Below are positions 30,521 to 61,293 of a stretch of DNA of 64,000 nucleotides, in pieces. The stretch spans positions 1-64,000 of the forward strand of contig NZ_SNUA01000010.1 of NCBI RefSeq assembly GCF_004360225.1. Direction: 5' to 3'. The notes under the pieces are model-generated. The model did not search any database. It saw nothing but the letters and a program-made list of their open reading frames with translations, and had not been told where the DNA came from. How positions within the stretch are numbered: position 1 is the stretch's first letter; every line of letters begins with the position of its first letter. The DNA is from Alcanivorax sp. 24. Its GTDB lineage: Bacteria; Pseudomonadota; Gammaproteobacteria; Pseudomonadales; Alcanivoracaceae. The translations under genes were made by a program, and so were the position numbers.

Positions 30521-30598
30521 AACGTGGGTCCCCAGAATAGGAAGCCTTGATGGGTGGCAAGGCCTTGAAGTCGACAAGAAGAACGAAACCGTATAAAA

Positions 30599-30617: not shown

Positions 30618-30624
30618 GAATCCG

Positions 30625-30660
30625 CCCGAATCGGTTCCATTTATGCCCGAATCGGGTTCC
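30625..30660 (+). promoter_or_regulatory. Direct-repeat operator upstream of the AraC gene
   Basis: CCCGAATCGGTTCC (30625-30638) and CCCGAATCGGGTTCC (30646-30660) are direct repeats whose starts are 21 bp apart, two helical turns. This suits an AraC-type protein with two half-sites. A related pair lies upstream of the first NRPS gene at 31684-31712. Confidence 0.6.
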
Positions 30661-30688
30661 TCGCAGGACCATGGAATGGAGGGCAGGT

Positions 30689-31777: not shown

Positions 31778-34700
31778 ATGGATGACATCACTGATGTGCC
31801 CGGCGTGCGTGCGTGTGTCGCGGCGGTGCTGGAGCTCCCCGTAGATGCCGTCAGCGACGACGGCAATCTCATTGAAATGGGGGTCGACTCGATCACCATG
31901 ATGCGCCTGGCCAGCGAGTGGCGCCGGCGGGGGCATGACATTTCTTTTGCCCAGATGGTTTCCAATCCCAGGTTGTCTGCCTGGTGCTCTCTGCTTGGTA
32001 CCTGTGTGGATACCGATAAAACGGAGACATCGGCACCGGAAACGATGGGCCGTTGTCTGGATGAGCGGGCACCCTTCGAACTGGCTCCGATGCAGCATGC
32101 GTATTGGATCGGGCGGTCTGGTGACCAACAACTGGGCGGCGTAGCCGCGCATTTCTATAACGAATTCGATGGCGCCGGCGTGGATGGAGACCGGCTGGAG
32201 CGGGCGGTTAAAGCGCTTATCGAGCGTCATGGCATGCTGCGGGTGCGTCTCACTGATGACGGTCGTCAGCGTATTCACGCGGACAGCACCTGGCTTGGCC
32301 TGAAGGTGCATGACCTGCGGTCGATGACGGTGGAAGGTGCCGAGCAGGCCCTGGAACGGCTGCGCCAAGCGTTATCTCATCGGTGCATGAACCTGGCGGC
32401 CGGAGAGGTGTTTGATGTTCAGCTGTCGTTGCTGCCGGATGCGATGCGCGTGGACGGTACCCGTGTCCACTTAAACCTCGATATGGTCGCCGCTGATGCT
32501 CTGAGTTTGCGCGTATTGTTGAAGGATTTGGCCGACCTGTATCGCGGTGAGGTGTTGCCCCCCATCGAGTACAGCTATCCCCGCTACCGCGCCGATCATG
32601 ACGCGTCCATGGCCGGGGAGGGGCGTCGTGCCGGCTGGCATCGAGACCGGGATTATTGGCGTGACCGACTCGCCGATCTGCCGGCAGCGCCGCGCTTGCC
32701 GATCACGGGTGGGGGCGGAGCGCAACAGGCGACCCGTGTGATCCGGCGTCACGACTGGCTGCCTCCCGAGCGGGTCGCGGCGTTTACGACGACGGCGCGT
32801 GCGCATGGGCTGACGCCGGCCATGGCGCTGGCGGCGGTGTTCGCCGAAGTGCTCACGGCCTGGAGCGCCGAGCCGGATTTCCTGATCAACCTGCCGTTGT
32901 TCAACCGGGAACCGCTGCACTCCGATGTGGACCAGCTGGTCGGTGATTTCACCTCCTCGGTGTTGTTGGCATGGCGGGGCGGTGCGCCGGGCTCCTTTGT
33001 CGACCGGGCACTTGCTCTGCAAGACCGTTTTCACTCCGACGTCCAGCACGGCACCTTCACCGGCGTTGACGTCCTGCGGGAACTGTCCCGTCATCATGGT
33101 GAAAAACGGTTGGCACCAGTGGTGTACACCAGTGCCTTGGGGTTGGGGCCGCTGTTTTCCGACACCGTGCAGACCTGCCTTGGGCGACCGAGCTGGATTA
33201 TCTCCCAGGGGCCTCAGGTCTGGCTGGACGCGCAGGTGACGGAGCTCGACAACGGCCTGCTGGTGAATATGGATGCGCGCGAGGACGCTTTCGAGCCAGG
33301 TGTTCTGGATGCCCTGTTCGAAGCCCATGAGCGATTGCTGTCGGTGTTGATTGATTGCCCGGACGCGTGGTGCCGGCCGGTGCCCGCCCTGTTGCCGGAC
33401 AGCGCGCTGGCGCGCCGGGCCTCCATCAATGGCGTTTCCCGACCGTTGTCCGGCCGCCGGCTCCATGAAGGCTTCTTCCACATCGCCGACACCAACCCGG
33501 ATGCCCCCGCCCTGCTGTGGGAGACACACGAAACGCTGTCCTATGGCGAACTGCGGCGGCGGGTGATGAGTGTGGCCGGCTATTTGGTGGGCGAGGGCGT
33601 GCAACCGAATGACGTGGTGGCGGTGTCGTTGCCCAAAGGGGCCGAGCAGATCATCGCGGTGCTTGGGGTGCTGGCGGCCGGGGCGGTGTATCTGCCGATC
33701 GGCGTGGACCAACCCGAGGCCCGCCGCCGGCGTATCCTCGGCGCCTCCGGTGCGCGCCTGACGCTGGACGCGCTGCCCGAGGTGTCGGCGCCCTTGTCGG
33801 CACCGGTGCCGGGCAATGACCGGGATCTCGCCTACATTCTCTATACCTCCGGTTCCACCGGTGAGCCCAAGGGCGTGGAGGTGCCGCATCGGGCGGCCAT
33901 GAACACCATCGAGGATCTGACCGATCGTTTGGACCTGAGTGGCGAAGACCGGATCCTGGCGCTGTCCGCGCTGGAGTTCGATCTGTCGGTGTTCGATATG
34001 TTCGCCGCGCTGTCCGTTGGTGCCGCCGTGGTGTGCGTGAGGGAAAGCGAGCGGCGTGATGCCATGGTCTGGAACCGTCTGATCCGGCGCCACCGGGTCA
34101 CCGTGCTCAATTGCGTGCCGGCGCTGCTGGATATGATATTGAGCGCGGCGGACGCCGAGACACTGATGACACTCAGAGCGGTGTTGCTGGGCGGCGACCG
34201 GATTCCCCCCGAGCTGCCCGGCAGACTGGCCCGCCAGGTCCCGGATTGCCGTTTTATCGCTTTGGGCGGCACTACGGAAACCGCCATCCATTCCACTTTT
34301 TTTGAGGTTAAGGAAACTCGGCCGCGCTGGCATTCCGCGCCGTACGGAACGCCATTGGCGAATGTACATCTTCGGGTAGTGGATGCCCTGGGGCGCGATT
34401 GCCCGGATTTCGTCGCTGGTGAACTGTGGATCGGCGGGGACGGCGTGGCCCGGGGATACCGCGGCGATCCGAGCAAAACAGCGAGCCGGTTTGTTGAGCG
34501 TGATGGCATACGCTGGTACCGCACCGGTGATCAGGCCCGCTATCGGCCGGACGGCAACGTGGAGTTTCTCGGGCGCCTGGACCATCAGATCAAGGTGCGT
34601 GGTCACCGCATCGAACTGGGCGAGGTGGAAGCGGCCCTGGCCGGCGCGCCGGGCGTGCGGCAGGCGGCGGCGGTGGTGGGTAAGCCGGGACTGGTGGCGG

Positions 34701-37700
34701 TGGTGGCCCTGGTTGCCTCGCCGCGCAACCATGACGAGGAGTGGGTCGATCTGCGAGCGCTGCCGGCGGTGTTCGAATCATTACGTGATCATCTCGAAGC
34801 GACCTTGCCCTCGGTGATGATTCCGGTGCGTCTCTATGTCTGCGCCGCGCTGCCGCTCACCGCCAACGGCAAGATCGACCGCAAAACCCTCGCCCGCCAT
34901 GTCGAGGAGCAGGAAAGACGGCGGGAGCCCGCCGCCGTGACGCCGCCCCAGGGTGAAGTGGAACGCCGGGTCGCCGTGGTCTGGCGCCGTCTTCTCGAAT
35001 TGCCGCGGGTGGGGCGCGAGGAGAATTTCTTTTCCTTGGGCGGCGATTCCCTGCTGGCCACCCGAATGGTTCGCCGCTTGGGTGAAGAGGGGCTCACTGG
35101 CGTACGTCTGGCGGCGCTGTTCGAGCATCCGGTCCTGTCGGAGTTCGCCGCTACTCTGGGACTCAGAGACGACCCCACCCCACGGCGGCGATGGCACGCG
35201 GATATCGAAAACCGCTACCAGCCGTTCCCGCCCACGGAAGTGCAACGCGCCTATTGGATAGGGCGGGATCCGGGGCTGCCACTGGGCGGGGTGAGCTGCC
35301 ACTTTTACCGGGAATACGACGTGGTGGATCTGGACGTCGCGCGTCTGCAGGACGCACTGAACCGGTTGATCGATCGTCATGAGATGTTGCGGGCGGTGTT
35401 CGATGATCAGGGGCACCAGCGAATCTTGCCGGATGTGGCATGCTTTTCCATTCCGGTGGAAGACGTGGAAGGCGATTGGGACGCGGCCTGTGAGCGACTG
35501 CGGGAGGCGGCCGCGCACCGGGTATTCGATCCCACGCTGTGGCCGTTGTTCGATGTCCGAGGGATCCGTTCGGGGAGTCGAATCCGTCTGGCGATCAGTC
35601 TGGATAACCTGATCCTTGATGCCTTGAGCATTTTGCTGTTCTACCAGGAATGGGATCTTCTCTACCGGGAGCCGCGCGCCGAACTGCCACCAGTGTCCTT
35701 GTCGTTTCGCGATTACCGGCTCAACAGTGCTCCCACGGAACAGGAACGGGATCAGGCCCGGGCATTCTGGCGGAAGCAGCTGCCGCAATTACCGCCGGCG
35801 CCGCAACTGCCGCTGGCCTGTCGTCCGGAAGACATTAGCCGGCCGTGCTTCGTTCGGCATCAGGGGGCGTTGGACGCGGACACCTGGTCGCGTCTGATCG
35901 CGCGGGCGCAAAACGAACGGGTGACGCCCTCGGCACTACTGCTGACCGCGTTCGCCGAGGTGCTGGGACGCTGGAGCGCGCAGTCCCGACTGACCCTGAA
36001 CCTGACCTTGTTCGACCGTCAGGAGGTTCACCCGGATATTCATCGGGTGATGGGGGATTTCACCTCCCTGATGCTGCTTGGCTATCGGCCGGATCCTGGC
36101 GATTCATGGCTTGATCGTTTGCGGCGCACGCAAAAAGCGTTGGGCGAGGCGCTGGATCATCGCGCCTGGTCCAGCGTGACACTGTTGCGCGAACTGGCCC
36201 GCGATTCCGGGGAAGGCCTGGCGTCGATGCCGGTGGTGTTCACCAGCGCCCTCGGGGTTCCGGGGGGTACCGCCGCGCCGAAGGAGGGACCGTTCAGCCG
36301 CCAGGTCTGGGGCCTCACCCAGACGCCCCAGGTCTGGATCGATCATCAGGTGGTGGAGGCGGATGGCGGTATTGCCTTGAACTGGGACGTGGTGGAGGCG
36401 TTGTTCCCCGATGGCCTGATCACTGACATGTTCCAAGCCTATATGGACTTGCTTCACGAACTTGCCGGGATGGACTGGCGAGCGCCGGTACCGGACGTGA
36501 TGCCCGCGTCGCAACGCACCGTGCGCGATCAGATCAACGACACCCGTGCGCCGTTACCAAGCGGCACCCTTCACCAGGCCTTCTTTCAGCACGCCGGCGA
36601 CCAGGGTGAGCGAGTGGCTCTGTATTGGGGGCAGGACGGTGCGCTGAGCTATGGCGAACTGGCGGATCACGCCTTGCGGATCGCCGCTCGGCTGCGACGG
36701 GTCGGGGTGTCACCGGGGGACGTGGTGGCGGTGCAATTGCCCAAGGGGCCGGATCAGATCGCCGCGGTTCTGGGGGTGCTGGCCGCCGGCGCCGCTTATC
36801 TGCCGCTCGGCATGGAGCAGCCGCCGGCGCGGCGCGACCGGGTATTGAAGCGCGCCGCGGTACGGTGGGTGGTGACGGCTTCGGAGCACAACTGGCCCGG
36901 ATCAGTAACACCCTGTTTCCTTGAGGATGCCCGGTCCATGGCGCCGCTGTCCGGGCCGCTGCCGGTGGCCGCCGACCAATTGGCCTATGTGATCTTCACC
37001 TCCGGCTCTTCCGGTGAACCCAAAGGCGTGGAGATCACTCATCGTGCCGCTTTGAACACGGTACTCGACATCAATCGCCGTTTCGAGGTGGGGCCGGGCG
37101 ACCGGGTCCTGGCCGTGTCCGCTCTGGATTTTGATCTGTCGGTGTACGACATCTTCGGGCTGCTGGGTGCCGGCGGCGCCTTGATTCTCGTCGACGAGCA
37201 GGAGCGCCGCGAGGCACGGAACTGGCGGGCCCTGATGCGGCGATACGGCGCCACCATCTGGAACAGCGCCCCGGCGTTGTTGGAGATGCTGATGGCCGTC
37301 AGTGATCCGGCGGAGCCGCCGGGTCCGTTGCGGCTGGCGCTTGCCTCTGGCGACTGGGTCGCGCTGGATTTGCCGGCGCGGGTGGCCGAATGCTCTCCGG
37401 GATGCCGTTTCGTGGCGCTGGGCGGTGCCACCGAGGCATCGATCTGGTCGAACTTCTATCCGGTGGAAGAACCGGTGGCAGAACGGGCGCCGGACTGGTG
37501 CTCGATCCCCTACGGGTGGCCGTTGACCAATCAGCGCTTCCGGGTGGTCGATGACGAGGGACGTGACTGTCCGGACTGGGTCGCTGGCGAATTGTGGATC
37601 GGTGGCGACGGCCTGGCGCTCGGTTACCGGGCTGATCCGGAACGCAGTGCCGCCCACTTTGTAATGGCTGAAACCGGGGAAGCGCGGTGGGACGGCCGCT

Positions 37701-38359
37701 GGTATCGCACTGGCGACCGGGCGCGCTATCGGCCAGGCGGACTGCTGGAGTTTCTCGGCCGCATCGACGGCCAGGTGAAGATTCGAGGACATCGCATTGA
37801 ACTGGGCGAAGTTGAAGCGGCGCTGTCGGCGTTTGCCGGTGTCGAACGGGCCGTGGCTCTGGTGCGGCGTGGTCCGGCTTCGGCGATGAAACTGGTTGCC
37901 GCCGTCGTGGCGCCGGCCGGACAACCTGATGCCGAGCAGTTGCGCTCGCATCTGGCGGGGTTGCTGCCGGTGCCGATGATTCCCGAACGAATCGATGCTC
38001 TGGAGACACTGCCGTTAACCGCTAATGGAAAGGTGGACCGCGCCGCGCTGGCCGAACATTTCGCGGCGCCTGGTGGTGAGGAGGAGCGAGCCGGACCACC
38101 GCGAGGCCAATGGGAAGCGCGGGTGGCGGCATTGTGGGCGGAGCTGCTGGAGATCAGCGCGCCCCAACGGCAGCAGAGCTTCTTTGAGCTGGGCGGGGAC
38201 AGTCTGTTGGCGACCCGATTCAGTGAAAGCGTTCGCCGCCGCCATGGTGTAGCCCTGTCGCTTCGTCATTTGTTCGCCCATCCCGTTCTGGCGGATGTGG
38301 CGGCGGCGCTGCAAGCGGAGAGCGCGCGAACCGCGGATATGGAAGAGGGTGCGTTATGA
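31778..38359 (+). CDS. Nonribosomal peptide synthetase 1 (ArCP-Cy-A-PCP-Cy-A-PCP)
   Basis: This 2193-residue cytoplasmic synthetase begins with an aryl carrier domain (residues 1-75, MGVDSITM) that should receive salicylate. It continues Cy1 (about 100-530), A1 (560-1040), PCP1 (1050-1120, LGGDSLL), Cy2 (1140-1570), A2 (1595-2085) and PCP2 (2100-2175, LGGDSLL). Both cyclisation domains keep the DxxxxD motif (DMVAAD and DNLILD). Reading pocket residues by eye, A2 gives DLYNLSLIWK, the cysteine code. A1 gives DLFNLGLIHK, which departs from it. No epimerase or methyltransferase is inserted, unlike PchE. The C-terminus is acidic (ADMEEGAL), fitting docking to the next synthetase 49 bp downstream. 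Confidence 0.92.
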   Translation: MDDITDVPGVRACVAAVLELPVDAVSDDGNLIEMGVDSITMMRLASEWRRRGHDISFAQMVSNPRLSAWCSLLGTCVDTDKTETSAPETMGRCLDERAPFELAPMQHAYWIGRSGDQQLGGVAAHFYNEFDGAGVDGDRLERAVKALIERHGMLRVRLTDDGRQRIHADSTWLGLKVHDLRSMTVEGAEQALERLRQALSHRCMNLAAGEVFDVQLSLLPDAMRVDGTRVHLNLDMVAADALSLRVLLKDLADLYRGEVLPPIEYSYPRYRADHDASMAGEGRRAGWHRDRDYWRDRLADLPAAPRLPITGGGGAQQATRVIRRHDWLPPERVAAFTTTARAHGLTPAMALAAVFAEVLTAWSAEPDFLINLPLFNREPLHSDVDQLVGDFTSSVLLAWRGGAPGSFVDRALALQDRFHSDVQHGTFTGVDVLRELSRHHGEKRLAPVVYTSALGLGPLFSDTVQTCLGRPSWIISQGPQVWLDAQVTELDNGLLVNMDAREDAFEPGVLDALFEAHERLLSVLIDCPDAWCRPVPALLPDSALARRASINGVSRPLSGRRLHEGFFHIADTNPDAPALLWETHETLSYGELRRRVMSVAGYLVGEGVQPNDVVAVSLPKGAEQIIAVLGVLAAGAVYLPIGVDQPEARRRRILGASGARLTLDALPEVSAPLSAPVPGNDRDLAYILYTSGSTGEPKGVEVPHRAAMNTIEDLTDRLDLSGEDRILALSALEFDLSVFDMFAALSVGAAVVCVRESERRDAMVWNRLIRRHRVTVLNCVPALLDMILSAADAETLMTLRAVLLGGDRIPPELPGRLARQVPDCRFIALGGTTETAIHSTFFEVKETRPRWHSAPYGTPLANVHLRVVDALGRDCPDFVAGELWIGGDGVARGYRGDPSKTASRFVERDGIRWYRTGDQARYRPDGNVEFLGRLDHQIKVRGHRIELGEVEAALAGAPGVRQAAAVVGKPGLVAVVALVASPRNHDEEWVDLRALPAVFESLRDHLEATLPSVMIPVRLYVCAALPLTANGKIDRKTLARHVEEQERRREPAAVTPPQGEVERRVAVVWRRLLELPRVGREENFFSLGGDSLLATRMVRRLGEEGLTGVRLAALFEHPVLSEFAATLGLRDDPTPRRRWHADIENRYQPFPPTEVQRAYWIGRDPGLPLGGVSCHFYREYDVVDLDVARLQDALNRLIDRHEMLRAVFDDQGHQRILPDVACFSIPVEDVEGDWDAACERLREAAAHRVFDPTLWPLFDVRGIRSGSRIRLAISLDNLILDALSILLFYQEWDLLYREPRAELPPVSLSFRDYRLNSAPTEQERDQARAFWRKQLPQLPPAPQLPLACRPEDISRPCFVRHQGALDADTWSRLIARAQNERVTPSALLLTAFAEVLGRWSAQSRLTLNLTLFDRQEVHPDIHRVMGDFTSLMLLGYRPDPGDSWLDRLRRTQKALGEALDHRAWSSVTLLRELARDSGEGLASMPVVFTSALGVPGGTAAPKEGPFSRQVWGLTQTPQVWIDHQVVEADGGIALNWDVVEALFPDGLITDMFQAYMDLLHELAGMDWRAPVPDVMPASQRTVRDQINDTRAPLPSGTLHQAFFQHAGDQGERVALYWGQDGALSYGELADHALRIAARLRRVGVSPGDVVAVQLPKGPDQIAAVLGVLAAGAAYLPLGMEQPPARRDRVLKRAAVRWVVTASEHNWPGSVTPCFLEDARSMAPLSGPLPVAADQLAYVIFTSGSSGEPKGVEITHRAALNTVLDINRRFEVGPGDRVLAVSALDFDLSVYDIFGLLGAGGALILVDEQERREARNWRALMRRYGATIWNSAPALLEMLMAVSDPAEPPGPLRLALASGDWVALDLPARVAECSPGCRFVALGGATEASIWSNFYPVEEPVAERAPDWCSIPYGWPLTNQRFRVVDDEGRDCPDWVAGELWIGGDGLALGYRADPERSAAHFVMAETGEARWDGRWYRTGDRARYRPGGLLEFLGRIDGQVKIRGHRIELGEVEAALSAFAGVERAVALVRRGPASAMKLVAAVVAPAGQPDAEQLRSHLAGLLPVPMIPERIDALETLPLTANGKVDRAALAEHFAAPGGEEERAGPPRGQWEARVAALWAELLEISAPQRQQSFFELGGDSLLATRFSESVRRRHGVALSLRHLFAHPVLADVAAALQAESARTADMEEGAL

Positions 38360-38408
38360 ATCCGTGGCCCCGGCTTACGACCCAGCACGACATCCGGAGA
38401 GGGACGTT

Positions 38409-41400
38409 ATGAACGCCAATGCCTTGATCGAGGAACTGCAGGGGCTCGGAGTGGAACTCTGGGCGGAGCAGGAACAATTACGGTTCCGTGCGCCCAGGGG
38501 GGTGCTTACCGAGGAGCGGCTTGCCACGTTACGCTCGCTCAAGACGCAAGTGGTCGAATTGCTTCGCGGCGCGGCCTTCGACGCGGTGACCGCCGACAGC
38601 GAAGGCCGCCATGAGCCTTTCCCTTTGACCGAGGTGCAGGAAGCCTATCTGTTGGGGCGCAACGAATCCTTCGGCTTTGGCGGGGTGGCCTGCCACGGTT
38701 ATCTGGAAGCGGTGTATCCGGCTTTGGAACCGCAAGTGTTGGAGGACGCCTGGAATCGGCTGATCACCCGCCATGACATGCTGCGTGCGGAGGTCAGCGC
38801 GGACGGTTACCAACGGATATTGCCGGAGGTCCCGCACTACCGGATCGCCATCGCGGATGGACGTGGCTGGTTGCCGTCCGAATTGGAGCGGCATTTACAG
38901 GCAACCCGCTCGGAAATGGATCATCGGCTCTATCCAATCGGGCAATGGCCCATGTTCGAACTGCGTCTGACCCGCACGCAAGGGGCCGACATCCTGCATT
39001 TTTCTCTGGATGCGTTGATTGCTGACTGGGCCAGCGCGGGGATTCTGTTCTCCGAACTGAATCAGTTGATCCAGGGGTATGGCGATACCTTGTCCGAACT
39101 GGAAATCAGCTTCCGCGATTATGTCCTGGCGCAGCGGCGCATGCGTGAGGGGAGCGCTTATCGGCAGGCCCGTGACTATTGGCTGGCGCGACTGGATGAC
39201 CTGCCGCCGGCACCTCAATTGCCGGTTTTGTCATCGGCTGCCGCGGACAAGGCCTGCTTTCATCGGCATCACTGGCGGTTACCGGCCGGGCATTGGCGGG
39301 CCTTGCGCCAGCAGGCCACCGGGTACGGGCTGACGGCCTCCAATGTGGTGTTGACCGCTTACGTCGCGGTACTGCGGCGCTGGAGCCGAAGCCCGGACTT
39401 TTCCCTGAACCTCACCTTACTCAATCGCCAGGCGCTTCATCCACAGGTCCATGCCTTGGTGGGAGACTTCACTTCGGTGAGCCTCCTGGCGGTCCGCGCC
39501 GCTGATGATTTGCCCTTCCATCGACGGGCGGCGGCATTGGGGGAGCAGCTTTTCGCCGACTTGGATCACCGGTTGTTCTCAGGGGTGGAAGTGATTCGGG
39601 AGATCGGCCGGCGGCATGGGCAAGACGCCGCGTTAATGCCGGTGGTGTTCACCAGCGCCATCGGGCTGGGTGGCACCGGCGAGGCAGAGATCGGCTGCCG
39701 CCTGGAGAACGGTGTTACCCAGACGCCCCAGGTCTTCCTGGATTGCCAGGTCCGCGACGACGAGGGCGGCCTCGAGGTGAACTGGGATGTTCGTCAGGGC
39801 GTGTTTCCTGCCGGGCTGGTCGACGATATGTGGGAGGCCTTCCAGACCCTGCTGCTCGACCTGGCCGGCGGCGAGCACTGGACGGCCACGGAGCCCGTGG
39901 TATTGCCCGCCTGGCAGACGTCGACCCGGGCCAGGGTGAATGATACCGAGGCGCCGGTGCCGGACCGGCTGCTGCACCAGGCCGTGCTGGAGCAGGCCGC
40001 GCGGACGCCCGACGCTGACGCGGTGGTGGCCCCTGGAGAAACGCTTTGCTATGGCGATCTGGTTCGCCGTGCCGGGGCCGTGGCCGGCGCCTTGCGTGAC
40101 CAGGGCTGCCGCGCCGGCGATCACGTCGCGATCGTGATGAGCAAGGGCGTGGAGCAGGTGGTGGGCGTCCTCGGCGTGTTGCTGGCCGGCGCCGCCTACC
40201 TGCCTCTGGATGTTACTCAGCCCGCGAAACGTCGCGATAAAGTGCTTGCCGATGCCGCCGTCGCGGCGGTGTTGGTGCAATCATCAAACCGGCCCCGGGA
40301 TCTGCCCGAAGGGCTGCCGGTCATCGAGGTCGACCGGCTCGACGCCACGGAAGGCATGCCGGAGGTCGCTGGCGGTGACCCGGACTCCCTGGCGTATCTG
40401 ATCTATACCTCGGGCTCCACCGGCGATCCGAAAGGCGTGATGATCACGCATCGCGCCGCGCTCAATACCATCGAGGACATTAATCGCCGATTCGACGTCA
40501 CCGGCACCGATCGTGTGCTGGGGCTGGCGAATTTGAACTTTGATCTTTCCGTCTACGATATCTTCGGCCCGCTTTCACGCGGCGGCGGGTTGGTGCTACC
40601 GGACGCTCAACGCGGGGCTGATCCGTCTCATTGGGCGGAATGTGTTATCGGACATGGCGTCACGCTTTGGAATTCGGTGCCGGCACAATTGCAGATGCTG
40701 ACCCATTACCTTGATGCGGAACCGGCCGCCATGCCCAGCCTGCGTCTTGCTCTGGTGTCGGGGGACTGGGTACCGCTGTCGCTGAAAGCGAATCTTCACC
40801 GCCACGCCCCGGCGGCGGACCTGGTGGCCTTGGGCGGCGCCACGGAAGCGGCGATCTGGTCCAACTACCATCGGGTGGCGACGGTGGACCCGGAATGGAC
40901 CAGCGTTCCCTATGGACTACCGCTGGCCAATCAGGGGTTTCGGGTGCTTGACGCGGGCCTTCGTGACCGCCCGGTGTGGGTGCCCGGCGAGCTCTATATC
41001 ACTGGAATGGGATTGGCCACCGGCTACCTGGGCGACGCGGCGTTGACCGAAACACGCTTTTTTCACCATCCGGTGGACGGACAGCGCCTGTATCGAACCG
41101 GTGATATGGCCCGATATCTGCCGTCCGGCGAGTTGGAGTTTCTTGGTCGCGATGACGGCCAGGTCAAGATCCGGGGGCATCGTGTGGAACTCGGTGAAGT
41201 GGAGGCGGCGCTATCGGCATATCCCGGCGTGGCCGCCGCCGTGGCGGTCGCCGCCGGGAACGATAAAGGGGATCGGACCCTGTTGGGGTTTGTCGAAGCG
41301 AAGCGGGGGACGACGCCACATGCCGCGTCCCCGCCGGTCGATGCGGCGCGACGCCTGGCCGGGCACCAACTGAAGGATACGGACACCGAACACGCGGCGG

Positions 41401-48509: not shown

Positions 48510-49681
48510 TCATCGAGCCCGCCGAGGCCCATTTGGCTGGTGTTGCCGGTGTACGCCGCCATGGGCGTCCGGTTGTCGAGCCCGAGCGGATTCCGCGGGT
48601 GATGGAACATCTGGAGGCGGTCGGGCGCCTGGCCATCCGCGACGGTTTGCATCGGTGTGGCTGGCATCACGGTGAGCGTCTGCCGCGTCGGGATCTGACG
48701 GCCAGACTCGGCGTGGCGCACCGGCATGCCGGACTGCTGCGGTCCTGGCTTTCGGCTTTGATGTCGGCCGGAATGCTGGAGGAGACAGGCGGCTCTCTCG
48801 GTTGGCGAGGCAAGGCGCCATCACCGGACTTCAACGTTAGCGCCCCAAGTGAACTGGAATGGGCCTACGCCGACCTGGGCTTCCCGCCGATCATGGCGAG
48901 GGTGCATGGGCGTGCCCTCGAGTCTCTGCCGGATCTGATTCGAGACATGCTCAGTATTGAGCAGGTGCTGTTTGCCGACGGTCGGGTTCTGCAAGCGCTG
49001 GCGGCCTATCAGGACAACTTGTTCACCACCTACCTCAACAGCGCCTGCGCCCATCTGGCGAGGCGCCTGGCCGAGTCACGTTCAACCCGTTCGCTGAAGA
49101 TCGTGGAACTGGGTGGTGGCGCCGGTCTGACCTCTGCCTCCGTGCTGCGGGAATTGCACGGCATCGAGGTGGACTATCTGTTTTCGGATCTGTCGCGGTT
49201 GTTTACCGTCGCCGCCCGGGACCGGTTTTCCGCGAGGCCGGGAATGCGGTATGGCCTGCTGGACATCAACACGGCCTTCACCACGCAGGATGTCGCCGCC
49301 GACAGCGTCGATCTGGTGGTGGCCGGCAATGTGCTGCACAACGCCCGTGATCTGCGCGCTACCCTCGCGCATATCCGTCAGGTCCTGGCGCCGGGAGGGT
49401 GGCTGTTATTCACCGAATCCTGCCGTGACAACCATGCCGTGCTGACTTGTATGCAGTTCCTGCTGTCGCCGGCGTCCGGTGCCGCGGCGCCGGGCTGGTC
49501 GGATCGGCGCGGGGTGTCCGGCAGCCCGTTTCTGAACCTCACTGGCTGGCGGGACACCTTGCGGCAGGCGGGATTCGCACCGCTGCTGATTTTGCCGGAA
49601 ACGGCATCGCCCTTGGCCGCCGCCGGCCAGTACCTGTTTCTGGCCCGGGTGGATGATGACATGGACATGGGGGCCGTATGA
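48506..49681 (+). CDS. Stand-alone SAM-dependent methyltransferase of the NRPS type
   Basis: This 391-residue protein has a helical N-terminal region (about residues 25-180) and then a class I methyltransferase fold with motif I IVELGGGAGLTSASVL, DYLFSDLSRLF, VDLVVAGNVLHNARDL and LAPGGWLLFTES. These motifs, including the order FSDLS then LAPGGW, parallel the methyltransferase inserted in NRPS2. It probably evolved from an NRPS-embedded domain. It starts at a GTG overlapping the upstream stop. The methylated position (N, C or O) cannot be told. Confidence 0.8.
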   Translation: MIIEPAEAHLAGVAGVRRHGRPVVEPERIPRVMEHLEAVGRLAIRDGLHRCGWHHGERLPRRDLTARLGVAHRHAGLLRSWLSALMSAGMLEETGGSLGWRGKAPSPDFNVSAPSELEWAYADLGFPPIMARVHGRALESLPDLIRDMLSIEQVLFADGRVLQALAAYQDNLFTTYLNSACAHLARRLAESRSTRSLKIVELGGGAGLTSASVLRELHGIEVDYLFSDLSRLFTVAARDRFSARPGMRYGLLDINTAFTTQDVAADSVDLVVAGNVLHNARDLRATLAHIRQVLAPGGWLLFTESCRDNHAVLTCMQFLLSPASGAAAPGWSDRRGVSGSPFLNLTGWRDTLRQAGFAPLLILPETASPLAAAGQYLFLARVDDDMDMGAV

Positions 49682-51876: not shown

Positions 51877-53063
51877 CAAGCACTGTGGAACCGCCGCTAT
51901 CTTATCCGTTCAATCGCTTCGACGGCCTGGAGCTTTCGGAGCAGTACACCCGGGCGCTGAGCCGGACCGGATTGACCCGCATCACGCTGCCGTTCGATGG
52001 CGACGCCTGGCTGGCGACACGCTATGAGGATGTCCGTCTGGTGCTTTCGGACCGCCGTCTCAGCCGGGCGGAAGCGACGCAGCGGGAACGGGTGCCACGG
52101 GCCTTTCCCCGTGTCGCTGGCGGGATCGTGATCATGGATCCGCCGGAGCTTACCCGTTTGCGTAAACTGGCTCTGCAGGCGTTCACGGTACGCCGCGTGG
52201 AGGGCCTGCGGCCCCATGTGCGGGAAGTCGCCGACGGCCTGATCGACGATATGCTCCGCCGTGGCGCACCGGCGGATCTGGTGGCGGATTACGCCTTGCC
52301 GATCCCGATGTCGGTGATCTGCCAGTTGTTGGGGGTGCCGTTGGCGGATCAGCCCCGTTTCAAGATCTGGAACGATTCCCTGTTGTCCACCAATGCGCTG
52401 TCCGCGGAAGAGACCCAAAAAAACCTGGGTGAACTGTCCCAATACATCATGGGACTGATCAACGAGCGACGGGAGCAGCCCAGGGACGATCTGATTTCCG
52501 CCATGATCCAGGCCCGGGATCAGGACGACCGTCTGTCCCAGGGGGAACTGGTGCTACTGTGCATCGCCATTCTGGTGGCGGGCTACGAAGGGGTTTCCTC
52601 CCATATTCCCAACTTTCTTTACACCCTGCTGTCGCAGCCGGAAACCCTGGACCGGCTGCGTTCGGATCCGGCCCGTATTGCTGACGCGGTGGAGGAACTG
52701 CTGCGTCTCATCCCGCTCGCTTCGGCGGCGATGTTCGTGCATTTCGCCCGTGAGGACGTGCAAGTGGGGGACACCCTGGTGCGCGCCGGGGAGGCGGTAT
52801 TCGCGTCGGTTGGCGCGGCTAATCGGGACCCGCGCCGTTTCCCTCGGCCGGACCGTCTGGACATCGACCGGGATGCGTCAGGGCACTTTGCTTTCGGCCA
52901 CGGCATGCACCATTGCATTGGCGCCGGGCTCGCCCGGGTGGAGCTGCAGGAAGCGCTGGGGGCTTTGCTGCGGAGATTTCCGGAGATCCATATTCGCGGA
53001 GAGATCGAATGGAAGACCAAGACGTTCTTTCGCGGCCCGCTGCGGATGCCGGTGGCATGGTGA
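51873..53063 (+). CDS. Cytochrome P450
   Basis: This 396-residue soluble bacterial P450 has the ExxR motif as EELLR and the heme-binding loop FGHGMHHCIGAGLARVEL, with Cys near residue 347. The I-helix motif is AGYEGVSS near residue 235. The acid is kept, but the conserved Thr that helps split dioxygen is replaced by Gly. P450s acting on carrier-bound amino acids (NovI/NikQ-type CYP163) occur in NRPS pathways, and a CYP163 is part of the coelibactin cluster. Assignment to that family here is only a suggestion. It starts at 51873, overlapping the upstream stop. A redox partner is not encoded nearby. Confidence 0.88.
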   Translation: MTSTVEPPLSYPFNRFDGLELSEQYTRALSRTGLTRITLPFDGDAWLATRYEDVRLVLSDRRLSRAEATQRERVPRAFPRVAGGIVIMDPPELTRLRKLALQAFTVRRVEGLRPHVREVADGLIDDMLRRGAPADLVADYALPIPMSVICQLLGVPLADQPRFKIWNDSLLSTNALSAEETQKNLGELSQYIMGLINERREQPRDDLISAMIQARDQDDRLSQGELVLLCIAILVAGYEGVSSHIPNFLYTLLSQPETLDRLRSDPARIADAVEELLRLIPLASAAMFVHFAREDVQVGDTLVRAGEAVFASVGAANRDPRRFPRPDRLDIDRDASGHFAFGHGMHHCIGAGLARVELQEALGALLRRFPEIHIRGEIEWKTKTFFRGPLRMPVAW

Positions 53064-54169
53064 GCCGGCACGGCGGTGGGCGACGCCGCGTGGTGGTGGC
53101 GGGCACCGCTTTCGGTCGCATTTACATTGATGCGGTGTTGTCCCGCCCGGATTGTTTTCAATTGGCGGGCTTGCTCGCCAAGGGCAGCGAATACTCCCTC
53201 GCCTTGGCGGAGCGCCGGGGCGTGCCGTTGTTTACCGATCCGGAACAGGTTCCCGATGACGTCGATATCGTCTGCGTGGTGGTGCGCTCCGGCGCCCTCG
53301 GTGGCGATGGGGCTGAACTGGCGTGCGGATTGCTGAAGCGGGGTTTCCATGTGTTGCAGGAACATCCGGTGCACGGTACGGAAATCGTCGACTGCCTGCG
53401 CGCCGCCCGGGCCGGTGGCACCGCCTATGGGGTGAATACACTGTACCCGACTATCAAGCCGATTCGGAGGATGCTGGCCGTCGCGGCTCATCTGCGTCAG
53501 CAGCAGCCGCTGGCTTTTATTGATGCCGCTTGCAACAGCCAGGTGGCGTATCCGTTGATCGACATCCTTGGACGCGCGGCTGGTGGGTTGCGGCCCTGGT
53601 CGTTTCGGGCCGGGCCGGAGCCGGCCGGCATTGCATCGACGCCATTTCGTTGCCTGAACGCGATCATTGGCGGCGTGCCGACCACGTTGCGCATCCAGAA
53701 TCAGGTGCATCCCGACGATCCGGACAACCATTCCTACCTGATGCACCGCATTACGTTGGGCTGGGAAGGCGGCGTGCTGACATTGGCCGAAACCCATGGA
53801 CCGGTGCTGTGGAATCCGCGCCTGCACGCGCCTCGTGATGACACCGGTCGCTTGCTGATGGCGGGACTTGGCACCGGGCGTCTGGCGGTTCCCAGTACCG
53901 TGACGTTGAGCGACCCGGTGGCGACGGATTATCACCGCGTGTTCGCCGACGTCTGGCCGGAGGCGGTGGTGTCCGCGCTGTTGCGCCTGTGCCGGGATAT
54001 CGAGGATCCGGCGCGGCGGGCGGCCAGCGGCCAATGGGCGTTGGCCGTATCACAAGCATGGAAGGATATGACGGCGCAGGTGGGGATGCCGGAACTGATC
54101 CGTCCGGACGAACCCCGGGAAGTGTGTCTCGACGCGCTGCGGGCGGCGGCGATGGAAGAGGAGGGGTGA
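53057..54169 (+). CDS. Thiazolinyl imide reductase (PchG/Irp3/YbtU-like)
   Basis: This 370-residue protein of the Gfo/Idh/MocA-related imide reductase family has the nucleotide-binding start VVVAGTAFGRIYIDAV and the family segment CGLLKRGFHVLQEHPVHGTEI. YGVNTLYPTIKPIRRML and GGVPTTLRIQNQV follow. PchG and Irp3 reduce a carrier-bound thiazoline to the thiazolidine with NADPH. I start at ATG 53057. A GTG at 53060 forming a GTGA overlap with the P450 stop is equally possible. Codons further upstream lie inside the P450 gene. Confidence 0.87.
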   Translation: MVSRHGGGRRRVVVAGTAFGRIYIDAVLSRPDCFQLAGLLAKGSEYSLALAERRGVPLFTDPEQVPDDVDIVCVVVRSGALGGDGAELACGLLKRGFHVLQEHPVHGTEIVDCLRAARAGGTAYGVNTLYPTIKPIRRMLAVAAHLRQQQPLAFIDAACNSQVAYPLIDILGRAAGGLRPWSFRAGPEPAGIASTPFRCLNAIIGGVPTTLRIQNQVHPDDPDNHSYLMHRITLGWEGGVLTLAETHGPVLWNPRLHAPRDDTGRLLMAGLGTGRLAVPSTVTLSDPVATDYHRVFADVWPEAVVSALLRLCRDIEDPARRAASGQWALAVSQAWKDMTAQVGMPELIRPDEPREVCLDALRAAAMEEEG

Positions 54170-54170
54170 G

Positions 54171-54878
54171 ATGAGTCTGTCCTGCAGCCATGTGCTGCTC
54201 TGGGTGCGCGATCTCCATCAGGCGGTGGTGGATTTCCGGGCTCTCGGGTTTCAAGTGGACTACGCCACCGACCCGGAAAAAGCCCAGCACGCGCACATCT
54301 GGTTTCGACGCGGGCCGGTGATCGAATTACTGACCACACCGGCCAATGCCCGTTATTTCAAATGGCCCATCGATCTGATGGCCGGGCGTGGTGCCGGCGA
54401 GCGCATGGTGCGCTGGGGGGAGGGCGGGGAAGGGTTTTGCGATGTCGCGGTGGTGACCAATGATGACCCCAAGGCGGTGACGGCCAGACTGAAACGCTGC
54501 GGCATCACCCTCGGCCGTTTCGTGCCCTGGCGGCGTACCCGTCCAGACGGCCAGCGTACCCGCTTCCGCTTCGCCTACCCGCGTCATGGCCGGCTTCCCT
54601 TTTTGGTGACGCCCTATGATCCGCCGCAGCACCCGGCCACCGTGTGCCACGACAACGGCGCCACGGCGCTGCGGCGAGTGCGTCTGGGGGCGCGGGTGGA
54701 GGACCGCGTGCTGTTGAACAATCTGGTGAGCGACGACCCGGTGTTCTCGGTCGAATCGGCGGAGCGAACCAGTGTGCTGTGGATCGAGCTGGAGGGCCTG
54801 TCCCATGCACTGGACGGGACTTTGACACACGGCGCCTCGATTCGACCTGCCGCGGTGTCGGCTGGAGCGATGGGGTGA
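54171..54878 (+). CDS. VOC (glyoxalase/bleomycin-resistance fold) family protein
   Basis: This 235-residue protein opens with CSHVLLWVRDLHQAVVDFRALGFQVDYAT, a typical VOC first module (shown in part), and has IWFRRGPVIELLTTP and PRHGRLPFLVTPYDPPQHP, resembling the Glyoxalase_3-like subgroup. VOC proteins bind metals or ligands and can act as isomerases, dioxygenases or self-resistance proteins. It starts 1 bp after the reductase stop. A tailoring or metallophore-binding role is possible, but nothing identifies the substrate. Confidence 0.75.
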   Translation: MSLSCSHVLLWVRDLHQAVVDFRALGFQVDYATDPEKAQHAHIWFRRGPVIELLTTPANARYFKWPIDLMAGRGAGERMVRWGEGGEGFCDVAVVTNDDPKAVTARLKRCGITLGRFVPWRRTRPDGQRTRFRFAYPRHGRLPFLVTPYDPPQHPATVCHDNGATALRRVRLGARVEDRVLLNNLVSDDPVFSVESAERTSVLWIELEGLSHALDGTLTHGASIRPAAVSAGAMG

Positions 54879-54911
54879 CCCGTACCCCTGTTGACTGCAA
54901 AGGAGGCAACC

Positions 54912-56519
54912 ATGTTGGAAGGCTGCGTACCCTGGCCGCCGGAATTGGCGGAGCGCTATCGGCGTGAAGGCTATTGGCGTGATCTCGATCTGGGCAGCTG
55001 GTGGCGGCGACGCGCTGCTGAGTTCGCCGATCACCCCGCGCTGGTGGACGGTGAGCGGCGCTGGAGCTACCGGGAACTGGATGACTGGGTAGAACGGCTG
55101 GCGGCGGGAATACTGGCGACGGGATTCAAGGCCGGTGAACGAATGCTGCTGCAACTGCCCAACCGGGCGGAATTTGTCGCGTTGAGCCTGGCGCTGTTCC
55201 GTGTCGGGGTGATTCCCGTACTGGCGTTGCCGGCGCACCGGGAAAATGAAATCCGCCATTTGGCACGGCTTTCGGCGGCCCGGGCCTATGTGATCGCCGA
55301 TACCCATCTGGGCTTCGATTATCGTCCGATGGCGCGGACGTTATTGGAGCAGGTCGATACCCTGCGTTCGGTGTTCGTGGTCGGAGACGCCGGCGGCTTC
55401 CAACGCTTTGCCTCCCTGGACGCCGAGCCGCGTCCGATCGCCGTGCCCGCTGCCGATGACGTTGCCGTGTTGCTATTGTCCGGCGGCACCACCGGCTTGC
55501 CCAAACTGATTCCCCGCACGCACAACGATTATCTGTATAACGCCCGCGCCAGCGCCGAACGGACCGGATTCTCCGGTGATACCCGCTATCTGGCGGCATT
55601 GCCGGTGGCGCACAATTTCCCCCTGGCGTGCCCGGGGTTGCTGGGCACGTTCGAGGTCGGGGGCACGGTGGTGCTGTGCCCCGATCCCAGCCCCGATACC
55701 GCCTTCGAACTGGTGGAGCGCGAACGGATAACGGTGACCGCTCTGATCCCGACACTGGTGCGTGTGTGGCTGGAGTTCGCGCTCCATGCCGATGCTGATC
55801 TGAGCAGTCTGAGTCTGTTACAGGTGGGCGGCTTCCGTCTCAAAGCCGAGGTGGCGGCGCAGGTCGGCAAGGTCCTGGGTTGCGGTTTGCAGCAGGTTTA
55901 CGGCATGGCGGAGGGTCTGTTGTGCATGACCGCGCCGGATGATCCGCCGTCACGGATCCTTGATACCCAGGGCCGCCCCCTTGCCGAGGACGACGAGATC
56001 CGGGTGGTGGACGAGCAGGGCCAGGACCTGCCGGATGGGGAAGTGGGCGAGCTGCTGGTCCGCGGGCCCTACACTCTGCGCGGCTACTACCGGGCGGAGA
56101 CACACAACCGGCGGGCCTTTACCGAGCAGGGGTATTACCGCAGTGGCGACCGGGTGAGGCGTTTGGAGGGAGGCTATCTGGTGGTGGAAGGCCGGGACAA
56201 GGACGTCATTAATCGTGGCGGGGAAAAGGTCCCGGTGGAGGATGTGGAGAACCACCTGCTGTCGCATCCGGCGGTCGCCGATGTGGCGCTGGTGGGCCTG
56301 CCCCACGAGACATTGGGCGAATGCAGCTGCGCGTGCATTGTCGTCAAGGGCGAAGCGCCGCGATTGTCGGAGTTGAATGCGCATCTCTCCGCTGCGGGGA
56401 TGGCTGCCTACAAGTTGCTGGATCGGCTCGAAATCGTGGATGGCTTTCCGTTGACTCGGCTAGGCAAGATCAATCGGCGGCAGTTGGTCGAGCTGCTTGT
56501 CGCCGAGGAGGTCTCGTGA
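54912..56519 (+). CDS. Salicyl-AMP ligase (YbtE/PchD-like)
   Basis: This 535-residue stand-alone adenylation enzyme activates salicylate and loads it on the aryl carrier domain of NRPS1. Motifs are LLLSGGTTGLPKLIPRTHND (A3), an aryl-acid-type Asn in PVAHNFPLA, QQVYGMAEGLLCMT, and the catalytic Lys in LTRLGKINRRQL. The N-terminus (YRREGYWRD) is typical of DhbE/YbtE enzymes. The start at 54912 is preceded by AAGGAGG. It is separated from the VOC gene by 33 bp, the second-widest gap in the operon. Confidence 0.93.
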   Translation: MLEGCVPWPPELAERYRREGYWRDLDLGSWWRRRAAEFADHPALVDGERRWSYRELDDWVERLAAGILATGFKAGERMLLQLPNRAEFVALSLALFRVGVIPVLALPAHRENEIRHLARLSAARAYVIADTHLGFDYRPMARTLLEQVDTLRSVFVVGDAGGFQRFASLDAEPRPIAVPAADDVAVLLLSGGTTGLPKLIPRTHNDYLYNARASAERTGFSGDTRYLAALPVAHNFPLACPGLLGTFEVGGTVVLCPDPSPDTAFELVERERITVTALIPTLVRVWLEFALHADADLSSLSLLQVGGFRLKAEVAAQVGKVLGCGLQQVYGMAEGLLCMTAPDDPPSRILDTQGRPLAEDDEIRVVDEQGQDLPDGEVGELLVRGPYTLRGYYRAETHNRRAFTEQGYYRSGDRVRRLEGGYLVVEGRDKDVINRGGEKVPVEDVENHLLSHPAVADVALVGLPHETLGECSCACIVVKGEAPRLSELNAHLSAAGMAAYKLLDRLEIVDGFPLTRLGKINRRQLVELLVAEEVS

Positions 56520-57295
56520 TGAGCGCAAAGGTGAGGCACCCGGCTGTTCGCTGCTTTCGTCTCAGCGAACAGCCGTCGGCGCGTCTGGTGTGCCTGCCGC
56601 ATGCCGGTGGCAGCGCCAGCTGTTACCGCGACTGGGGCAAAGCTTTGCCTGATCACCTCGATCTGCTGGCGGTGCAATATCCAGGGCGGGAGGAGCGCTA
56701 CCCGGAACCGTTCGCGGACTCCCTGGAAGCGCTGGCCGATGAAATCACCGAGGCTTTGACGCTGTTCGCCGAGGTGCCGCTGGTATTGTTCGGGCACAGC
56801 CTCGGCGCCGCTTTGGCTTATGAAGTGGCGCTGCGGCTGCGACGACGGAATCTGTCACTGAAACGTCTGGTGGTGTCCGCCCACCCAGCTCCTCACCGGC
56901 AACGCGAGAGCGCGCTCCATCAACGGGGCGACACGGCGCTGCTGGACGACATACGACGCCTTTCCGGCGGCAGTACCCCGCTTGATGAACCGGCCATGCG
57001 TGAACTGTTCATGCCCATGCTGCGTAACGACTACCGGCTGATCGAACGTTACAGGCGAGATTTTCCCGACGAGATCGACGTGCCCGTGGATGTGTGTTTT
57101 CCCGTTGATGACGACGAAATTAGCGGAGACGAGGTGCGCGCCTGGCAGGATGTCACGCCCTGGACGCTAGGGGTGCTGCCTTTTCGCGGCGGTCACTTCT
57201 ATCTGCGCGAGCAGTATCGGGATGTGGTCGACAGAGTGCTGAAACAACTGGACTCCCCGATCGGACAAGGAGATAGAGAGCATGTTACATCCTGA
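56519..57295 (+). CDS. Type II thioesterase (PchC/YbtT-like)
   Basis: This 258-residue alpha/beta hydrolase has LVCLPHAGGSASCYRDW, FGHSLGAALAYEVALRL with the nucleophilic Ser, and a C-terminal FRGGHFYL with the catalytic His. Type II thioesterases in siderophore operons clear wrongly loaded or stalled carrier domains. The ATG at 56519 overlaps the ligase stop by 1 bp. The C-terminal coding region overlaps the lyase gene by 14 bp. Confidence 0.9.
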   Translation: MSAKVRHPAVRCFRLSEQPSARLVCLPHAGGSASCYRDWGKALPDHLDLLAVQYPGREERYPEPFADSLEALADEITEALTLFAEVPLVLFGHSLGAALAYEVALRLRRRNLSLKRLVVSAHPAPHRQRESALHQRGDTALLDDIRRLSGGSTPLDEPAMRELFMPMLRNDYRLIERYRRDFPDEIDVPVDVCFPVDDDEISGDEVRAWQDVTPWTLGVLPFRGGHFYLREQYRDVVDRVLKQLDSPIGQGDREHVTS

Positions 57296-57587
57296 CGAGT
57301 GCACCGGCCTTGCCGATATCCGCCAGGCGATCGATACGCTGGATCATGAACTGGTGGGGCTCCTGGGCAAGCGGATGGGGTACGTGTTGGCCGCGTCACG
57401 GTTCAAACCGGATGAAGCGAGTATCCCGGCGCCGGACCGGGTAGCGGCGATGCTGGTGGAGCGCCGCCTCTGGGCGCGAGAAAACGACCTGGACAGCGAC
57501 TTCGTCGAATCCCTCTTTGAGCAGATCATTCCCTGGTTTATCGCCCGCCAGGTGGAATATTGGCGTGAGCAGAGGGGGCAGCGATGA
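57282..57587 (+). CDS. Isochorismate pyruvate-lyase (PchB-like)
   Basis: This 101-residue protein of the AroQ chorismate-mutase fold converts isochorismate to salicylate and pyruvate. Family residues are seen in ADIRQAIDTLDHELVGLLGK, YVLAASRFK, APDRVAAMLVERRLWA and PWFIARQVEYWREQ. Its length agrees with PchB (about 100 residues). It overlaps the thioesterase gene by 14 bp and the isochorismate synthase gene by 4 bp, as in pchDCBA of Pseudomonas. Confidence 0.93.
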   Translation: MLHPDECTGLADIRQAIDTLDHELVGLLGKRMGYVLAASRFKPDEASIPAPDRVAAMLVERRLWARENDLDSDFVESLFEQIIPWFIARQVEYWREQRGQR

Positions 57588-58975
57588 AGATGACGCGGAT
57601 GGGCGATTTGGAATCCGTGTTCGCCAAGGCACGGAAACAGGCCCGGCAATCCGGCCAGCCGGTATTGGCGGTTGTGAGCCTTCCCTGGTCCGGCGCGGAC
57701 CCGATGGCGTTATACCAACGGTTGGACGCCGCGGGGGTGGACTGTCTGTACTGGGAAACCCGGGAGCCGCAACGGGTGCTGCTGGGGATCGGTCAGGCAT
57801 TGGAGTGCGTGCCCGACCCGGATTCCGGTCTGACTGGTCTGCAACACCGTTGGCGGCGGCTCAATGATGACGCTGTAGTGGAGGGCGCGGAGGTAGCGCG
57901 CGCCATTGGCGGGCTTCGTTTTGATCGGACAGCGAATCAACAGTGGCCGTGGCAATGCTTTCCCGCTGCCTGTCTGACGGTGCCGCGTCTGCTGCTGGAG
58001 TGCACGGCGCGGGGAAGTTATTTGATCTGCCATAAGCTGGTGCGGCAGGACGACGACCCGGTGACCGAAAGTCATCGCTATCGACGTGATATCGAGACGC
58101 TGCTTTCCAGTGAACAGGCGGTGTTGTCGTCTCCGCCGGCTTCGACTTTGGTGCGGGAGCAGGGGATCGGCGCTCGGCAATGGCAGGCGAAGGCAGAAGC
58201 TCTGATTGACGCGATCCGGGCGGGCCGGTTGAGCAAGGTGGTGCTGGCGCGGCACCTGCACCAGACCTACTCGGCGCCGTTGTCCGCGGCTGCCGTGCTG
58301 TGCCGTTTGCGTGACGCCGACCCGTGCTCTCATCTCTTTGCCGTTCATCGTGGTGGCCTCTGTTTTCTCGGGGCGACGCCGGAGCGTTTGGTCCGCGTAC
58401 ATCACGGCAGGGTGGAGACACATGCTCTGGCGGGCACCATACGGCGTGGTGACAATGCTGAGGACGACCAACGTCTTGGCGAGCAACTGCTGGCCTCGGA
58501 CAAGGACCAGCACGAGCACGAGCTGGTGGTTCAGGCTATCCGTGATGCGCTGCGTCCGCTGCTTGATGAGCTCACGATCTCCCCGGAACCGGTGTTGCAT
58601 CGCCTGCCGCTGATGCAGCATTTGAGTACCCGCATCGAAGGTCGCATCGCCGCGGGATCCGGTGTTCTTGACTTGGTGCAGGCCATGCAACCCACCCCCG
58701 CCGTGGCGGGCTATCCGCGGCACGAGGCTCTGGCTTGCATCCGCGTCCACGAACGCTTCGATCGTGGCTGGTATGCAGGTCCCCTGGGATGGATTGACGG
58801 CGCGGGTAATGGCGACTTCGTGGTAGCGCTACGGTCCGCCTTGATCAGCGGCAAGGAGTGCCACCTGTTTGCGGGGTGTGGTTTGGTGGGGGATTCGGAG
58901 CCTGAACATGAATACGGAGAGACCAGCCTTAAGTTGTCTTGCATGTGCAGAGCGCTTGTTAGCGATAGAACCTGA
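57584..58975 (+). CDS. Isochorismate synthase (PchA-like)
   Basis: This 463-residue chorismate-binding enzyme makes isochorismate for the lyase. Motifs are KVVLARHLHQTY, FLGATPERLVRVHHGRVETHA, AGTIRRGDNAEDDQ, SDKDQHEHELVV and GPLGWIDGAGNGDFVVALRS. A Lys in LSKVVLARH fits the general base of isochorismate-forming members. It ends the 14-gene biosynthetic operon. A weak hairpin (AAAGCC/GGCTTT at 59017-59042) follows. Confidence 0.92.
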   Translation: MKMTRMGDLESVFAKARKQARQSGQPVLAVVSLPWSGADPMALYQRLDAAGVDCLYWETREPQRVLLGIGQALECVPDPDSGLTGLQHRWRRLNDDAVVEGAEVARAIGGLRFDRTANQQWPWQCFPAACLTVPRLLLECTARGSYLICHKLVRQDDDPVTESHRYRRDIETLLSSEQAVLSSPPASTLVREQGIGARQWQAKAEALIDAIRAGRLSKVVLARHLHQTYSAPLSAAAVLCRLRDADPCSHLFAVHRGGLCFLGATPERLVRVHHGRVETHALAGTIRRGDNAEDDQRLGEQLLASDKDQHEHELVVQAIRDALRPLLDELTISPEPVLHRLPLMQHLSTRIEGRIAAGSGVLDLVQAMQPTPAVAGYPRHEALACIRVHERFDRGWYAGPLGWIDGAGNGDFVVALRSALISGKECHLFAGCGLVGDSEPEHEYGETSLKLSCMCRALVSDRT

Positions 58976-59093: not shown

Positions 59094-59199
59094 GCATTCA
59101 AGACCGATCATGGATCGTCGATTTCGGGCGCGGGGTATCGGTAAGGACATTGATGATTGCCCGTTCCAGATTTTCGTTTGCGCTACACATGGGACATCA

Positions 59200-61281: not shown

Positions 61282-61293
61282 GAGAGCCCTGCC

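Follow-up and report, generated by a model that had tools for sequence, protein, structure and literature searches.

The gene cluster analysed here lies in a 64,000-nucleotide stretch of the Alcanivorax sp. 24 genome (contig NZ_SNUA01000010.1, positions 1 to 64,000, our contig C10; hereafter the window), and its closest described relatives direct the synthesis of two metallophores reported in 2023. The mch cluster (mchA–S) of Pseudomonas sp. NCIMB 10586 makes mupirochelin, for which liquid chromatography–mass spectrometry suggested chelation of Fe and Zn, and A. dieselolei DSM 16502 was reported to carry a closely similar cluster in which mchS and mchR sit elsewhere (PMC10080011). The srb cluster of Sorangiineae strain MSr11367 makes sorangibactin A (507.1190) as its main product, a salicyl-oxazole followed by two N-methylthiazolidines and a homocysteine thiolactone, the structure of which was solved by nuclear magnetic resonance (NMR) and feeding (PMC10127202). 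The coelibactin cluster of Streptomyces coelicolor follows the same concept, with a cytochrome P450, a saccharopine-dehydrogenase-like protein (SDH) and, as in the sorangibactin-type synthetases, a thioesterase (TE) with a cysteine at its active site (PMC10127202).

Relation of the locus to described systems

What the window holds is very probably a metallophore cluster of the mupirochelin (coelibactin/sorangibactin) type; the host is Alloalcanivorax-like, and the 37-kb block that carries the cluster appears to have been transferred horizontally. All 19 gene kinds of the mupirochelin cluster are present. The order mchA to mchN is matched for 14 of 14 kinds: two non-ribosomal peptide synthetases (NRPSs), two ATP-binding cassette (ABC) transporter halves, SDH, two methyltransferases (MTs), P450, thiazolinyl imine reductase (TIR), VOC protein, salicyl-AMP ligase, type II TE, isochorismate-pyruvate lyase and isochorismate synthase. 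The divergent mchOPQ operon, mchS and the AraC-type mchR account for the other five; of these, the second receptor gene and the AraC gene do not occupy their Pseudomonas positions, a difference also reported for A. dieselolei. Corresponding pieces are 81–95% identical in a congener (G006) and 41–72% identical in three mch-like clusters of Pseudomonadaceae (G601, G707 and G514), two of which lack the P450.

By Pfam, the first synthetase (NRPS1, mchA-like, 31778–38359; genes are on the plus strand unless stated) contains three carrier, two condensation-family and two AMP-binding stretches. The second (NRPS2, mchB-like, 38409–43898, its start codon picked by eye in an open reading frame (ORF) listed from 38295) begins with a TubC-type docking domain, followed by a heterocyclisation (Cy) domain, an adenylation (A) domain interrupted by an MT, a peptidyl carrier protein (PCP) and a TE. 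This order, ArCP-Cy1-A1-PCP-Cy2-A2-PCP in NRPS1 (ArCP, aryl carrier protein) and docking-Cy3-A3(MT)-PCP-TE in NRPS2, bears out a sequence-only reading of the window. The DxxxxD motif is intact in all three Cy domains, as that reading had stated (DMVAAD, DNLILD and DALIAD; near 32480, 35603 and 39009), and these domains are the only three condensation-family matches in the 4.76-Mb genome.

Its further calls of PchA, PchB, YbtE, a reductase and a type II TE also hold. The isochorismate synthase (mchN/pchA-like, 57584–58975; NF005459, 535.9 bits against a cut-off of 475), the isochorismate-pyruvate lyase (mchM/pchB-like, 57282–57587; NF005475, 151.9 bits against 126), which is shorter than the first ORF list allowed and was recovered by translation, and the TIR (mchI/srbI/Irp3-like, 52913–54169, with a later true start; TIGR01761, 330.9 bits against 188.8) all pass their NCBIfam cut-offs. 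The aryl-AMP ligase (mchK/srbK-like, 54891–56519) scores 648 with the dihydroxybenzoate (DHB)-AMP ligase model, short of the cut-off of 723.55, as would suit a ligase for salicylate, and the type II TE (mchL/pchC-like, 56321–57295, true start probably after 56500) carries the serine motif GHSLGA. Equally present are the P450 (mchH/srbH-like by position, 51846–53063; haem motif FGHGMHHCIG intact), the two extra MTs and the dehydrogenase-like protein, here the SDH (mchE/srbE/pchK-like, 47400–48509), together with a VOC/glyoxalase-like protein (mchJ/srbJ-like, 54171–54878) and the ABC transporter halves (mchC-like, 43709–45661, a mechanically listed ORF whose true start is later; mchD-like, 45637–47403). 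The free-standing MTs (MT1, mchF-like, 48506–49681; MT2, mchG-like, 49678–51876) and the MT embedded in A3, to which MT1 is related, look like paralogues, because MT2, over its C-terminal part, shares 41% identity with the embedded MT and 32% with MT1. The N-terminal 480 residues of MT2 matched no Pfam family and, by eye, look like a decayed A domain.

The srb cluster resembles the window in its seven- and five-domain NRPSs, its tailoring order E–K (SDH-MT-MT-P450-TIR-VOC-ligase), its cysteine TE, its P450 and its VOC protein, but has one Irp9-type salicylate synthase in place of a separate synthase and lyase, and a LysR rather than an AraC regulator (PMC10127202). The coelibactin cluster, unlike the window, has no VOC gene (PMC10127202). 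The window P450 has 322 relatives of solved structure, and the best 60 of these include no entry recognised as the coelibactin P450. Pyochelin and enantio-pyochelin clusters share with the window the salicylate start, Cy modules, the MT in the last module and a type II TE, but have two Cy modules and one reductase where the window has three and two. The SDH is common to the window and enantio-pyochelin (PchK), and the TIR to the window and the pyochelin-type cluster of a control genome (G492). The window P450 and VOC protein gave no match in the G492 region or in five loci with an enantio-pyochelin-like gene order (L077–L081). A yersiniabactin-type line needs a polyketide synthase module, and none of the 34 window ORFs scanned gave a Pfam match to a polyketide synthase domain, in line with what the sequence-only reading had noted. 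That reading was right about the salicylate starter, the three ring-forming modules and the kinship with coelibactin. Its statement that no such system had been described in Gammaproteobacteria is overturned by the mch cluster of Pseudomonas sp. NCIMB 10586 and by the report on A. dieselolei (PMC10080011). The kind of cluster, its gene order and its presence in the genus are thus already in print and ordinary as a discovery.

Product mass, first ring and chain release

Mupirochelin and sorangibactin C have one and the same formula, C22H28N4O4S3. The first was reported at 509.1345, with five peaks taken for isomers (PMC10080011); the second, at 509.1332, accumulates when the P450 gene of the srb cluster is removed (PMC10127202). 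By mass computation, a colinear three-module acid with two N-methyl thiazolidines gives 410.1203, and addition of C4H5NS, which is homocysteine thiolactone minus water, gives 509.1345. The shared formula and this sum suggest that the printed mupirochelin structure, with its iterative use of MchA, may be wrong and need revising. We assign a probability of about 0.4 to a reading in which mupirochelin and the Alloalcanivorax product are homocysteine-thiolactone metallophores, the printed structure is wrong, MchE/SrbE is a second thiazoline reductase, of the PchK type, beside the Irp3-type one, and A. dieselolei was perhaps scored as a non-producer because 509.13 was sought whereas the action of its P450 yields the oxazole at 507.12. 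No publication in the open-licence collection searched names both compounds, and the coincidence of formulas may thus have gone without comment.

In such a pathway, salicylate would come from the MchN and MchM homologues, and the MchK homologue would load it. Module 1 would add Ser or Thr and close an oxazoline, and modules 2 and 3 would each incorporate Cys and form a thiazoline. Reduction of these rings by the Irp3-type and PchK-type enzymes would give thiazolidines for N-methylation by the MTs. The cysteine TE would then release the chain, most likely onto homocysteine, which would cyclise to the thiolactone. The product would be seen at m/z 509.13, or at 507.12 should the P450 convert the oxazoline into an oxazole by oxidation; it would be exported by the MchC and MchD homologues, and its metal complex taken up by the receptors.

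The A-domain codes bear on the first ring. A1 reads DLFNLGLIH, and both A2 and A3 read DLYNLSLIW, in all five clusters compared (the window, G006, G601, G707 and G514). The latter we take to be a Cys code, and A1 resembles the Thr code (N278, G301 and H331). The codes come from motif patterns, and their positions were assigned by eye from an alignment with PchE; the pattern failed at one position at least in 7 of 63 A domains, and one reading, in locus L040, looks wrong. Because A1 does not have the Cys code of A2 and A3, the substrate of module 1 is probably Ser or Thr and the first ring probably an oxazoline. Four predictors were evenly split between Cys and Thr for the first mch A domain (PMC10080011), and in sorangibactin synthesis the first A domain, predicted to take Cys, was found by feeding to take Ser (PMC10127202). 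Elsewhere, in both Sporomusa sp. KB1 (L031) and Pelosinus fermentans (L032), the A domain of the NRPS ORF next to the one that ends in a TE reads DLYNIALIW.

Several points weigh against the thiolactone reading: (i) the CO2 loss assigned by the mupirochelin authors suits a carboxylic acid better than a thiolactone (PMC10080011). (ii) Strain NCIMB 10586 has mchH, the P450 gene, but gives 509 and not 507 (PMC10080011); the window P450, a candidate for oxazoline dehydrogenation, is intact. P. thivervalensis, which lacks mchH, also gives mupirochelin (PMC10080011). (iii) No mupirochelin was detected from A. dieselolei under the conditions studied (PMC10080011). (iv) A cysteine TE occurs in a pyochelin-type synthetase (G492) as well, though pyochelin is a plain acid. 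(v) The likeness to srb is drawn from the published description and not from the sequences of SrbC, SrbD and SrbH.

The published structure, proposed by its discoverers from tandem mass spectrometry, has a Thr-derived ring first and a C-methylated terminal thiazoline carboxylate released by hydrolysis, with iterative action of MchA supplying the fourth residue, a mismatch that they called surprising (PMC10080011). The CO2 loss fits this acid, and so does the likeness of A1 to the Thr code, with two of the four predictors giving Thr. It nonetheless calls for non-colinear use of MchA and an N-methylated oxazoline, and its complete formula coincides with that of sorangibactin C, made by a relative that shares this gene order and has as its main product sorangibactin A, a structure established by NMR and feeding; we consider the printed structure possible, although on the unlikely side. 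The reported fragments do not decide the matter. In an assignment by hand, the thiolactone accounts for 306.1239 as C15H20N3O2S (306.1271, a deviation of about 10 ppm) and for 233.0403 as C8H13N2O2S2 (233.0413, about 4 ppm), and the published structure, being an isomer, gives identical fragment formulas and fits equally. Ser with two N-methyl groups and Thr with one also have identical formulas.

The sequence-only reading had predicted a colinear salicyl-ring-ring-(N-methyl)ring carboxylate, which would be hydrolysed off the TE as in pyochelin. In its favour, three modules predict three residues, but its free carboxylate is doubtful: both characterised relatives carry the extra C4H5NS unit and are 99.014 heavier than that acid. 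The TE itself does not help the choice. The window TE has a cysteine nucleophile (GYCLGG, near 43215), with Asp and His at plausible places. TE motifs were found in 36 of 39 sources (L034, L041 and L044 had none, and L023 was left out, being the G060 contig again), and the nucleophile is Cys in 34 and Ser in 2; loci L023–L081 were found through the SDH gene, so the co-occurrence of SDH and cysteine TE among them arises by selection. In a second Pseudomonadaceae genus, all four TEs have Cys, one of them the same gene as in L081 and another in G492. The G492 NRPS matches the solved PchE structure (7emy) over residues 4–1438 with 2971.8 bits, and the TE of the NRPS downstream, a pyochelin-type PchF, reads GYCSGG. 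The TE cysteine, which has been called rare, therefore also occurs in a pyochelin-type synthetase. With pyochelin a free acid, a thiolactone does not follow from the cysteine by itself, and we rejected this residue as a marker of thiolactone release. The hydrolysed colinear acid, to which this control lends some weight, is still improbable in our view. In L031 and L032, the SDH-linked Cy-type NRPSs (ORFs near 14586 and 13390) are the two with a terminal Ser TE.

That the cluster is silent or decayed in its host, which the negative result for A. dieselolei could be taken to suggest, is slightly less probable still, given open reading frames, intact catalytic motifs where checked, a phosphopantetheinyl transferase match elsewhere in the genome and 81–95% protein identity kept across two species with different flanks.

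The two reductase-type genes

The SDH and TIR genes occur singly in pyochelin-like clusters and together in mch-type ones. Five genomes (G757, G564, G768, G610 and G483) have an SDH gene and no TIGR01761 match genome-wide. In the 20-kb loci of four such genomes (L077–L080) and in L081 (G485), the gene order is isochorismate synthase, type II TE, SDH, NRPS, NRPS, which fits an enantio-pyochelin-like cluster. Conversely, the pyochelin-type G492 has a TIGR01761 match and no SDH match at 1e-20. Both genes were found together in all six mch-type genomes searched, and also in G485 and G677. We take both PchK and PchG to be thiazoline reductases. In Pf-5, PFL_3491 is the saccharopine dehydrogenase PchK of the enantio-pyochelin cluster, located between PchC and PchF (PMC3377617).

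This pattern argues that MchE/SrbE, the 'saccharopine dehydrogenase', is probably another thiazoline reductase, of the PchK type. On the simplest reading, MchE/SrbE and MchI/SrbI would each reduce one of the thiazolines, in agreement with the two thiazolidines. Deletion of SrbE/F/G abolished sorangibactin production, and SrbE was called indispensable with its function left open (PMC10127202). Four coelibactin-like loci (L025, L029, L033 and L036) have an SDH and no TIR within the 21 kb covered, which does not tell either way. Beside its enantio-pyochelin-like line, G485 carries a further one (contig C47, about 120201–133985; L089, L090 and L085), with a two-module NRPS frame of 2174 residues, an NRPS of 1844 residues with a cysteine TE, and then adjacent SDH and TIGR01761 reductase genes.

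Setting and meaning of the locus

The conserved unit (21833–58954) is wider than the sequence-only reading had drawn it and also takes in the genes for two TonB receptors, for a large membrane protein beside an ABC ATPase and for an AraC regulator. On the minus strand lie the receptors (mchS-like by position, 21972–24095; mchQ-like, 24193–26340), both TonB-dependent siderophore receptors by Pfam with NCBIfam subfamily models below cut-off and 94% identity to G006, the 1099-residue mchP-like membrane protein (26337–29636) and the mchO-like ABC ATPase (29633–30640, true start probably further downstream). The mchR-like AraC-family regulator (30671–31651; Pfam) is on the plus strand and 93% identical to that of G006. 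In the mchP-like protein, 14 hydrophobic stretches on the Kyte-Doolittle scale lie within the first 590 residues, and the long C-terminal part has none; apart from weak similarity to an ABC-2 permease, the protein fits nothing in Pfam or NCBIfam, and homologues of 46–51% identity occur in the G060, L024, G707, G601 and G514 loci. A Fur-box-like site (30599–30617, no strand assigned) matches 13 of 19 positions of a Fur-box consensus, and the corresponding G006 region matches 14 of 19; the window has five such sites against a mean of 0.8 in 20 shuffles, which keep base composition only.

The congener G006 (4,928,223 bases), probably A. dieselolei, has the same arrangement, and its layout fits the published account of that species. 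The block aligns to it at 89.0% over 37,146 bp, and outside the block nothing aligns at 1e-10 between 72 kb of G006 and 95 kb of the window's contig. At 1e-20, two of the 13 genomes in the genus have the SDH gene. In one Pseudomonadaceae genus, 12 of 298 have it at 1e-40 (seven strong matches, three of which were fetched as G601, G707 and G514 and are all mch-like, and five weaker ones, four of which were fetched as wide loci), and a phylum-wide draw of 398 genomes gave two at 1e-30, one being the window's own. A scan of named genomes with strict patterns confirmed 29 of 74 pattern matches, no Pseudomonas among them. From a 37-kb block with unrelated flanks and this patchy occurrence, the locus looks horizontally moved, as was proposed for mch in Pseudomonas (PMC10080011).

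A clean empty site was not found among the other 12 genomes of the genus, in which the left flank (16900–20700) was only partly matched; the longest of the matches listed covers about 1.25 kb at 65–66%. The right flank was matched well only in G003, a congener without the cluster, and the 34 kb of G003 compared hold no left-flank sequence beside that match. From 59280 the window is collinear with G003 at 74%. A third TonB receptor with ExbB-like and DUF2149 genes (59110–62200), which scores best with haem-receptor models though below their cut-offs, lies outside the conserved block, from 59280 in this collinear part, and was rejected as a member of the unit. A tRNA-Leu gene (10050–10136) lies about 12 kb left of the block.

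What goes beyond the literature we could search is the structural clue in the shared formula, the role of MchE/SrbE as a probable second reductase and the cysteine TE in a pyochelin-type synthetase. The comparison links two 2023 papers, neither of which names the other's compound. It offers a function for SrbE/MchE, which the sorangibactin authors left open, and a structural clue that could correct the published structure of mupirochelin.

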